From the NCBI GenBank assembly GCA_938073895.1, contig CALJFB010000015.1:1-64000 (forward strand): a DNA stretch of 64,000 bases, written 5' to 3'. Position 1 is the first letter of the stretch; the number at the start of each line of letters is the position of its first letter. The notes under the pieces are model-generated. The model saw nothing but the letters and a program-made list of their open reading frames with translations, had not been told where the DNA came from and did not search any database. A program made the translations under genes and the position numbers. This DNA comes from an uncultured Flavobacteriaceae bacterium. GTDB lineage: Bacteria > Bacteroidota > Bacteroidia > Flavobacteriales > Flavobacteriaceae. Shown here in pieces: positions 1 through 62,780 of the stretch.

Positions 1-10
1 CAACGTAGGA

Positions 11-32
11 ATAAACACACTGTTGTGTTTAT
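11..32. repeat. Short inverted repeat 3' of the recombinase gene
   Basis: Two 9-base arms (11-19 and 24-32) with a 4-base loop lie 14 bases beyond the stop of the recombinase gene. It could be a weak terminator for that gene, but no T-tract follows on the minus strand. It could equally be part of a recombination site. The window edge prevents a decision. Confidence 0.4.
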
Positions 33-46
33 TTCTTATTTGTTTA

Positions 47-1177
47 TTACAAATCTAATGGATTTTTTATAGAATTAAAACTAGAAACGGCAACATGTGT
101 ATAAATCTCTGTTGTTTTTGAGGAACTATGACCTAAAAGTATTTGAATATGTCGTAAATCTGTCCCCGATTCGAGTAAGTGAGTTGCGAAAGTGTGTCTT
201 AACGTATGCGGAGTTACCTTTTTTGTGATATTTGCTTTTTTTGCTGAATTCTTCACAATCATTCCAACACTATTACCTGTGTATTGTTTTCCTTTCTCGC
301 CTTCAAATAAGTAGTTTTTTGGTTTATATTGGATATAATAGCACCTTAAATCAAGTAATATCGTGCTTGATAGTAACGTATATCTGTCTTTATTTCTCTT
401 AGAATCCTTTATATGTATAAGCATACGATCTGAGTCGATATCATTAATCTTTAAATTTAAAAGTTCACATCTACGCAAACCAGCAGAGTAGAGCAGACTA
501 ACAATACATTTGTGTTTTATATTATTAGTTGAGCTTATAAGGCGTTTTATTTCTTCCTTTGAAAGGACTACAGGTAATTTAGTCTCTTTAATAGGTCTTT
601 CTATTTTGTAAAGTCTATTAGGCATATTATGAACAACTTCATAATAGAATTTGATACTATTTATAATTTGATTTAAATATGAGTTTGAAAGGTTTTCATC
701 TATTAAGTGAGATAAATATGACCTGATATCTCTTTCATCTAGTGAATCTATATCCTTTTTTTTATGAAAATTTAAATATTTCTCAAAGCAATTTACATAG
801 GTTTTAATAGTATTATTAGCGTATTTCTTTAATTTAAGTTTTTCAATATATAGTTCTGGACATCTAATATAATCATTAGTTAGAGTTCTTTTTTCTTCCC
901 AAGTAGAATCTTTAATCTCATTAAGATTTTTTGAATTCGTGTTTTTAAAAAAGTATTTGCAGTCAATCCACGCAACACCTTTAAATAATGTAAATATAGC
1001 ATTAGTATTTCCTAAATTATTTGAAATGTATTGCATATTATGTTCTTTGCACCACGATATACCTTTTAATTCCTTGATTAAAGCATTAATAACTTTGTTG
1101 TAATTATACTGTAATCCAATGCATTTTTGGCCATTTATTAATAGGTGATGTAATGTAATATGTGAATTAGTGTTCAT
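47..1177 (-). CDS. Tyrosine recombinase/integrase, XerC/D-like
   Basis: A 376-residue site-specific recombinase that would cut and rejoin DNA through a phosphotyrosine intermediate. The catalytic set is complete: Arg235 in SAGLRR, Lys260, His324 and Arg327 in PHTLRHTFATHLL, His350 in LLGH, and the nucleophile Tyr359. Residues about 1-75 form an N-terminal domain seen in many Bacteroidota integrases. Residues about 104-185 are the SAM-like core-binding domain, followed by the catalytic domain. It lacks the extra helix of integron integrases, so it is not IntI. It is transcribed away from a perfect palindrome and lies 1 kb from a tRNA-Met, which suggests it belongs to a mobile or formerly mobile element. 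The recombination target is unknown. Confidence 0.93.
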   Translation of the reverse strand: MNTNSHITLHHLLINGQKCIGLQYNYNKVINALIKELKGISWCKEHNMQYISNNLGNTNAIFTLFKGVAWIDCKYFFKNTNSKNLNEIKDSTWEEKRTLTNDYIRCPELYIEKLKLKKYANNTIKTYVNCFEKYLNFHKKKDIDSLDERDIRSYLSHLIDENLSNSYLNQIINSIKFYYEVVHNMPNRLYKIERPIKETKLPVVLSKEEIKRLISSTNNIKHKCIVSLLYSAGLRRCELLNLKINDIDSDRMLIHIKDSKRNKDRYTLLSSTILLDLRCYYIQYKPKNYLFEGEKGKQYTGNSVGMIVKNSAKKANITKKVTPHTLRHTFATHLLESGTDLRHIQILLGHSSSKTTEIYTHVAVSSFNSIKNPLDL

Positions 1178-1225: not shown

Positions 1226-1260
1226 CGTGTATTAAACGTATATTATACGTTTAATACACG
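1226..1260. repeat. Perfect 35-base palindrome between divergent genes
   Basis: Two identical 17-base arms in inverse orientation (1226-1242 and 1244-1260) flank one central base. It lies between the recombinase (start 1177, minus) and the small zinc-ribbon gene (start 1265, plus), ending 4 bases before that ATG. A further partial copy of the arm's inner part (ACGTTTAAT) follows at 1258-1266. Candidate roles are an operator for both genes, a recombinase core site, or an RNA hairpin masking the start codon of the plus-strand gene. The structure is seen directly; the role is inference. Confidence 0.85.
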
Positions 1261-1264
1261 TTTA

Positions 1265-1645
1265 ATGTCGAATAAAAAATATTGTAAGAATTGTAAAAAA
1301 GAAGTATTAGGTCGTTCTGATAAGAAATTTTGTGATGATTATTGTAAAAGCCAGTTTCATTATAAAAAACTGACAGATGAAGAGTTGCCTTTTTATAAAA
1401 AGGTTGATAATCAATTAAAATTAAACCGAAAAATACTTAAGAGCTTTAATCGCTCCGGAAAATCTATTATTAGGGCTAAAACTTTGATCAAAGAAGGTTT
1501 TAATCATAACTTTTTTACTCATTATTGGAAAAATCAAAAAGGTGATGTATATTTTTTTAATTATGAATATGGATTTTTGAAGAAAAAAGAGAATGGAATA
1601 GATAAATATATTTTAATAACGCATCAAAATTATATGAGTAGATAA
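1265..1645 (+). CDS. Small zinc-ribbon protein of unknown function
   Basis: A 126-residue basic protein. The N-terminus has four cysteines in a CxxC and FCxxxC arrangement (CKNC at 7-10, then Cys23 and Cys27), typical of a short treble-clef or zinc-ribbon motif found in many flavobacterial proteins of this size. The rest is rich in Lys, Tyr and Phe, with no recognised domain. The ATG lies 4 bases after the 35-base palindrome, so its expression may depend on that element. Position beside a recombinase and an integrase remnant suggests accessory DNA. I do not recognise a specific function; a DNA-binding role is possible from the zinc ribbon. Confidence 0.8.
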   Translation: MSNKKYCKNCKKEVLGRSDKKFCDDYCKSQFHYKKLTDEELPFYKKVDNQLKLNRKILKSFNRSGKSIIRAKTLIKEGFNHNFFTHYWKNQKGDVYFFNYEYGFLKKKENGIDKYILITHQNYMSR

Positions 1646-44705: not shown

Positions 44706-44771
44706 ATAATAGTGTTTAAATTTATTTAAATAAATTTAAACACTTAATAGACTCGGTTTATTACTAGTTTA

Positions 44772-62642: not shown

Positions 62643-62700
62643 TCTTTTAATAGACAAGAACTAGTCTTTAGTCAACAATACATAGTTGGCAGTAAAATTA

Positions 62701-62736
62701 AAAAGCTCCAAATTACAATTGTAATTTGGAGCTTTT
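62701..62736. terminator. 36-base palindromic terminator between convergent genes
   Basis: A perfect palindrome (62701-62718 with 62719-62736) with A/T-runs; a hairpin with a four-base loop forms in RNA. It ends ettA on the plus strand and the MBL-fold gene on the minus strand. Confidence 0.92.
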
Positions 62737-62780
62737 TGTTTGTAATTATAATATATAAAACAAGAAATATTAATAAATAA

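Follow-up and report, generated by a model that had tools for sequence, protein, structure and literature searches.

A phased CG palindrome between an integron-type integrase gene and a divergent zinc-ribbon gene in Flavobacteriaceae: a candidate shared operator

Between the divergent starts of a tyrosine recombinase gene and a small zinc-ribbon gene, the window analysed here (a 64,000-nucleotide stretch of DNA from an uncultured Flavobacteriaceae bacterium, taken at its full length) carries a perfect 35-bp palindrome, CGTGTATTAAACGTATA-T-TATACGTTTAATACACG, and the question that it raises is what such an element does in this place. An earlier sequence-only reading had offered three answers: a core site for the recombinase, an operator shared by the two genes, and a hairpin that blocks translation. 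The arms (1226–1242 and 1244–1260) are each 17 nt long, 100% complementary and 1 nt apart; the palindrome stops 4 bases short of the zinc-ribbon ATG (1265) and lies 48 bases from the integrase start (1177), both distances being as first read. That such arms are rare by chance was likewise borne out, with ~1e-4 such palindromes expected per 64 kb at the composition of the window and a longest arm of 13 in 40 first-order random 64-kb sequences. A long palindrome is not in itself unique in the window, because two further perfect examples with no spacer (62700–62737 and 44711–44744), terminator-like and close to gene 3′ ends, are also present; the position between two divergent gene starts is unique. 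Four CG dinucleotides (1226, 1237, 1248, and 1259) follow one another through the palindrome in 11-bp steps, and no Rfam element was found there. The features of the locus are collected in Table 1.

Table 1. Features of the integrase/zinc-ribbon locus in window coordinates.
Feature	Coordinates	Strand	Basis
CGTTG crossover box of attI-like site; contig start	1..5	-	
attI-like site palindrome (AATAAACACA ctgt TGTGTTTATT), directly 3′ of integrase	10..33	-	
Integron-type tyrosine recombinase (integrase), 376 aa, ~105-aa extra N-terminal region, without IntI-specific insertion	47..1177	-	
Perfect palindrome, phased array of four CG, proposed operator	1226..1260	.	
Half-site TTAAACG (TTAnnCG type)	1232..1238	+	sequence, consensus
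Half-site CGTTTAA (CGnnTAA type), inverted relative to 1232–1238	1248..1254	+	sequence, consensus
Outer half-site CGTTTAA, shares A of ATG	1259..1265	+	sequence, consensus
Zinc-ribbon/treble-clef protein, 126 aa, possible winged-helix-like C-terminal domain, proposed operator-binding regulator	1265..1645	+	

The recombinase is of the tyrosine type (Phage_integrase E 1e-39); it passes the NCBIfam model NF040815 for site-specific tyrosine recombinase/integron integrase (230.5 against a cutoff of 220) and falls below the NCBIfam integron integrase model TIGR02249 (209 bits against a cutoff of 265). Its relatives, at 46–64% identity, occur throughout the Flavobacteriaceae and neighbouring families. 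Of 105 relatives, nearly all have 91–93 residues between box I and box II (91 in the comparison with VchIntIA, and 97 in a single relative), the reference spans being 134 in VchIntIA (2a3v) and 133 in a Vibrio locus of the same set; by both the TIGR02249 score and the box I–II distance, the IntI-specific additional domain was not found in the window integrase. Bacteroidota integron-type integrases (that of the window and relatives L039–L186) are without the ~42-residue IntI-specific insertion, and the same proteins possess an extra N-terminal region of ~105 aa. The IntI-specific domain is held to be necessary for integron-mediated recombination and is an obligatory profile in IntegronFinder (PMC9668308); Bacteroidota integrases without it would be missed by any search that requires it. 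The recombinase belongs, as its integrase, to an integron-type cassette system of Flavobacteriaceae and other Bacteroidota.

The site at which this system recombines is found at the opposite, 3′ end of the integrase gene. In most loci, the integrase stop is directly followed by a palindrome, perfect or nearly so, and then by CGTTG or ATTGTTG, and in the window the contig begins at the box of this attI-like site, the assembly probably having been broken by the cassette array. Contig ends fall within 200 bp of the integrase 3′ end in 15 of 59 loci and within 3 kb in 36, as compared with 5 of 59 within 3 kb on the opposite (5′) side. Three sister pairs that align clearly (L070/L074, L068/L072, and L063/L042) are similar up to and including the GTT and unrelated past it; in the first two, the integrase (89–93%) and the zinc-ribbon side align too. 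The site beside the integrase can be taken as an attI, at which cassettes enter, because the palindrome and box follow the stop in most loci and sister loci diverge at GTT. Beyond it, the region 3′ of the integrase gene in relatives contains orphan genes, mainly on the integrase strand, with intervening sites of attC layout (e.g., CACAACACAGTGTATAATTC...GAAACTATACACAAACCGTTGTG; sites in L041 and L046). A first regular expression missed most of these sites, and a laxer one was used for the counts in 79 integrase loci, which gave 45 downstream sites in the sense orientation as against 2 in antisense, and 6 upstream, where more than twice the sequence was covered. As judged from their letters, they have the makings of attC sites: AAC...GTT, complementary L boxes, and a single orientation. 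In the genome of the window itself, three attC-like sites near the end of contig C57 are oriented as expected if C57 extended the array leftwards beyond window base 1, a join that is putative.

The recombination site is thus the attI-like site just past the integrase stop (window 1–33), with crossover at GTT, and the palindrome at 1226–1260 is therefore not the crossover site. Its length, which is like that of tyrosine-recombinase core sites, and its place next to a recombinase gene had made an attachment or inversion site conceivable; however, the three sister pairs diverge exactly at the GTT of the 3′ site, and attC-like sites are enriched only downstream and on the sense strand. The search for further copies of the 17-nt arm that the sequence-only reading had proposed returned none at two or fewer mismatches in the 2.26-Mb genome (remaining matches have three mismatches and are scattered), and a looser pattern of the phased array had no second occurrence in that genome. 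With a single copy, no partner site, crossover mapped elsewhere and a sequence that does not track the integrase (see below), the core-site proposal was rejected and is very improbable.

What recurs in relatives is the place and layout of the palindrome. A divergent zinc-ribbon gene stands beside the integrase 5′ end in 77 of 101 loci, and a phased array occupies the same place in about 80 integrase/zinc-ribbon pairs. The intergenic DNA has a common design, not a common sequence, in which CG recurs every 11 bp, or every 12 or 10 bp in other lineages; CG–CG distances of 11 were observed 69 times (5.4 expected) and distances of 12 were observed 32 times (5.0 expected), with echoes at 22, 24, and 33 bp. 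In the array consensus, TTAatCG-TATcTTAtt-CG-aATAg.AT.-CG-TaTAAtAT.-CG-TTTAA, two TTAnnCG half-sites face two CGnnTAA half-sites. The 12-bp steps reach a perfect palindrome of 52 bp in L018/L049, and 10-bp steps characterize the lineage L185–L188 and are found again on Cytophagales plasmids (L202–L204; Rufibacter and Persicobacter), at a protein identity of only 30–37%; the arrays of L206 and L205 (Pontibacter and Adhaeribacter) are similar to the 10-bp version. In some paired loci the array is short or degenerate (L014, L094, L109, and L117). Of the outcomes that had been named beforehand as counting against a functional site, a single copy in the genome was indeed found; absence of conservation in relatives was not, position and design being strongly conserved.

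The same comparison bears on the proposal of an RNA hairpin that blocks zinc-ribbon translation. Such a hairpin agrees with a palindrome ending just ahead of the ATG, and the 65-nt leaders do fold more stably than shuffled sequences (mean z −2.2; −4.5 in the window). However, z is below −2 in only 48% of loci, L041 and L063 have direct repeats instead of a palindrome, the distance from array to ATG varies between loci, and a CG every 10–12 bp is not needed for a hairpin, which leaves the phasing and the non-palindromic arrays unexplained; moreover, a palindromic DNA operator would yield the same folding signal. Folding stability agrees with the hairpin in part of the loci; as a conserved feature it was rejected on this partial signal, and we consider it improbable.

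As to which of the two genes the array belongs, array similarity follows zinc-ribbon identity when the integrase is removed (partial Mantel r 0.58; 0 of 500 permutations as high) and does not follow integrase identity once the zinc-ribbon protein is accounted for (partial r 0.09, p 0.074). The integrase tree contains a second clade whose members mostly have neither zinc-ribbon gene nor array; in its exceptions (L053/L142/L158, L031, and L186), both are present. Four of these loci represent partner swaps (L053, L158, L031, and L186), with zinc-ribbon genes and arrays that resemble those of first-clade loci and integrases that are only 32–42% identical to the integrases of those loci, and near-identical arrays stand beside integrases of only ~41% identity in L053 and L017 and in L158 and L143. 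Inside the first clade, L043 has lost zinc-ribbon gene and array together. Solitary zinc-ribbon paralogues are without an array in 15 of 16 cases, the exception (L173, in G171) having a 10-bp CG-phased array beside which no integrase was found; plasmid locus L205 also keeps array and zinc-ribbon gene, and no integrase was found beside them. The Mantel tracking, the swaps, the joint loss, the paralogue pattern, and loci L173 and L205 mark the array as a cis element that goes with the zinc-ribbon gene. It consists of repeated half-sites that lie between divergent genes and co-vary with the candidate regulator, as an operator would, and the earlier suggestion of a shared operator is well supported.

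Binding by the integrase itself, with the array serving in autoregulation or as an accessory site and not for crossover, would fit the short distance from array to integrase start. It would also fit L083, L091, and L132, in which CG-phased repeats of other sequence (CTGTCGAATGTATGTCGGATA) stand upstream of the integrase with no adjoining zinc-ribbon gene, as well as L063, which has lost the zinc-ribbon gene and kept 10-bp repeats, and ACGTT in the attC R boxes loosely resembles CGTTTAA. L125 is a weak case of phased repeats with no such gene beside them. The lack of tracking of the integrase, the near-identical arrays beside integrases that have diverged so far, and the sister integrases that are mostly without an array where they are without a zinc-ribbon gene all argue against it, and we regard it as unlikely.

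A further possibility is an operator for another regulator of the host, such as an SOS-type or phage-type repressor encoded elsewhere, for which a phased palindrome between divergent promoters would be suitable, the more so as integrases of other integrons are known to be under LexA control (PMC3108266). However, the published Bacteroidetes LexA motifs, GGA-N5-TCC and CTAA-N5-TTAG (PMC8565304), occur in 0 of 91 promoters, on which ground a LexA box, and with it assignment to the LexA-controlled integrons, was rejected; the array is also single-copy, and its 10-, 11-, and 12-bp versions vary with the adjoining zinc-ribbon gene. A regulator encoded elsewhere is about as doubtful as the integrase. 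The Bacteroidetes −7 promoter motif was not enriched relative to shuffled sequence (observed in 54 and 48 of 76 loci, with 49.8 expected), and the promoters are accordingly unplaced.

Four cysteines are invariant in the zinc-ribbon protein, whose body is conserved and whose structure is predicted with confidence (pLDDT 91.9 for the whole and 94.6 for the C-terminal domain alone). The best structural matches of the C-terminal model are weak and mainly winged-helix (RctB, Rpa2WH, CtsR-DNA, and TcpK-oriT; Z 3–5, best 5.0), and several of these proteins, namely RctB, CtsR, and TcpK, bind DNA. A winged-helix-like C-terminal domain is possible on the strength of the model, Z values of 3–5 being too low for fold assignment. 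Foldseek gave no match with E below 0.1, the zinc-ribbon profile gave nothing significant against PDB sequences, and viral contigs gave short zinc-ribbon matches only.

The reading that we favour, with a probability of about 0.6, is that 1226–1260 is an operator that is shared by the integrase gene and the divergent zinc-ribbon gene and bound by the zinc-ribbon protein. In an array of the order TTAnnCG, TTAnnCG, CGnnTAA, CGnnTAA, the CG steps would come once per helical turn, so that several protomers could bind one face of the DNA. The likeliest binder would be the product of the gene that starts 4 bp away, which would bind cooperatively and, when bound, shut both its own promoter and that of the integrase; cassette recombination would then stay off until the zinc-ribbon protein was removed or inactivated, and the protein would take the part of LexA in controlling both itself and the integrase. 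We infer the binding, its repressive direction and an inducing signal; the conserved place and phasing, the tracking of the zinc-ribbon gene, the absence of LexA boxes, and the location of the recombination site elsewhere were observed. Against it, if the module is transferred as a single DNA segment, the array would travel with it regardless of its binder, and phased repeats occur without an adjoining zinc-ribbon gene in the five loci listed above. The four short or degenerate arrays, the weak structural matches, and the unplaced promoters also tell against the operator, and array binding is no property of the whole protein family, because the solitary paralogues are mostly without an array.

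Sedentary chromosomal integrons of the Vibrio cholerae IntIA type likewise have an integrase gene, an attI-type site with a GTT crossover box, and arrays made up largely of orphan genes and bearing attC-type sites (AAC...GTT and complementary L boxes), with turnover at attI. In contrast to these, the cassettes here lie past the integrase 3′ end on the same strand, the attI-like site has a perfect palindrome, the integrase has an extra N-terminal region and no IntI-specific insertion (box I–II 91 versus 134), and the 5′ side has a zinc-ribbon gene and a phased operator and no LexA box. The LexA box of integron integrase promoters (PMC3108266) is comparable as a palindromic element in the promoter region that would keep the integrase off; here, the motif is another one, the array is phased and multi-unit, and the proposed regulator is private and encoded next door. 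Autoregulatory operators of the phage-repressor type share the divergent genes, the repeated half-sites between them, and the adjacent regulator-like gene, but the candidate here is a treble-clef and possibly winged-helix protein of no described DNA-binding family, and half-sites step by 10, 11, or 12 bp according to lineage. Weak resemblance of the C-terminal model (Z 3–5) suggests a possible likeness to the iteron- or repeat-binding winged-helix proteins RctB and TcpK, with which no sequence similarity was found and which function in replication or conjugation.

Integrons have been recorded from Bacteroidota (PMC8618304), and a survey of complete genomes found complete integrons in a single Bacteroidetes species, Salinibacter ruber (PMC9024848). 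No paper describing this flavobacterial integron lineage was found in the open-access literature searched. The lineage itself looks non-canonical, and we see about an even chance that Bacteroidota chromosomes and plasmids harbour an integron lineage with Xer-like integrases devoid of the IntI domain, a palindromic 3′ attI, and a private zinc-ribbon regulator of a phased CG array that replaces LexA. If such a lineage works without the IntI-specific domain, attC-type cassette capture does not need that domain; marine Bacteroidota would hold an overlooked cassette reservoir, and the operator would differ as a regulatory device from known LexA control. Integrase/zinc-ribbon modules were also observed on plasmids of Rufibacter, Pontibacter, and Persicobacter (L204, L206, L202, and L203), with small hypothetical genes after the integrase in L204 and L206, and because of these plasmid-borne modules the lineage may be mobile.

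Beside the module, at 1854–2123 of the window, there is an 89-aa open reading frame that resembles the start of ~445-aa integrases, which are intact in L041, L042, and L053; it is probably a truncated integrase remnant, and a tRNA-Met gene (2176–2250) adjoins it.
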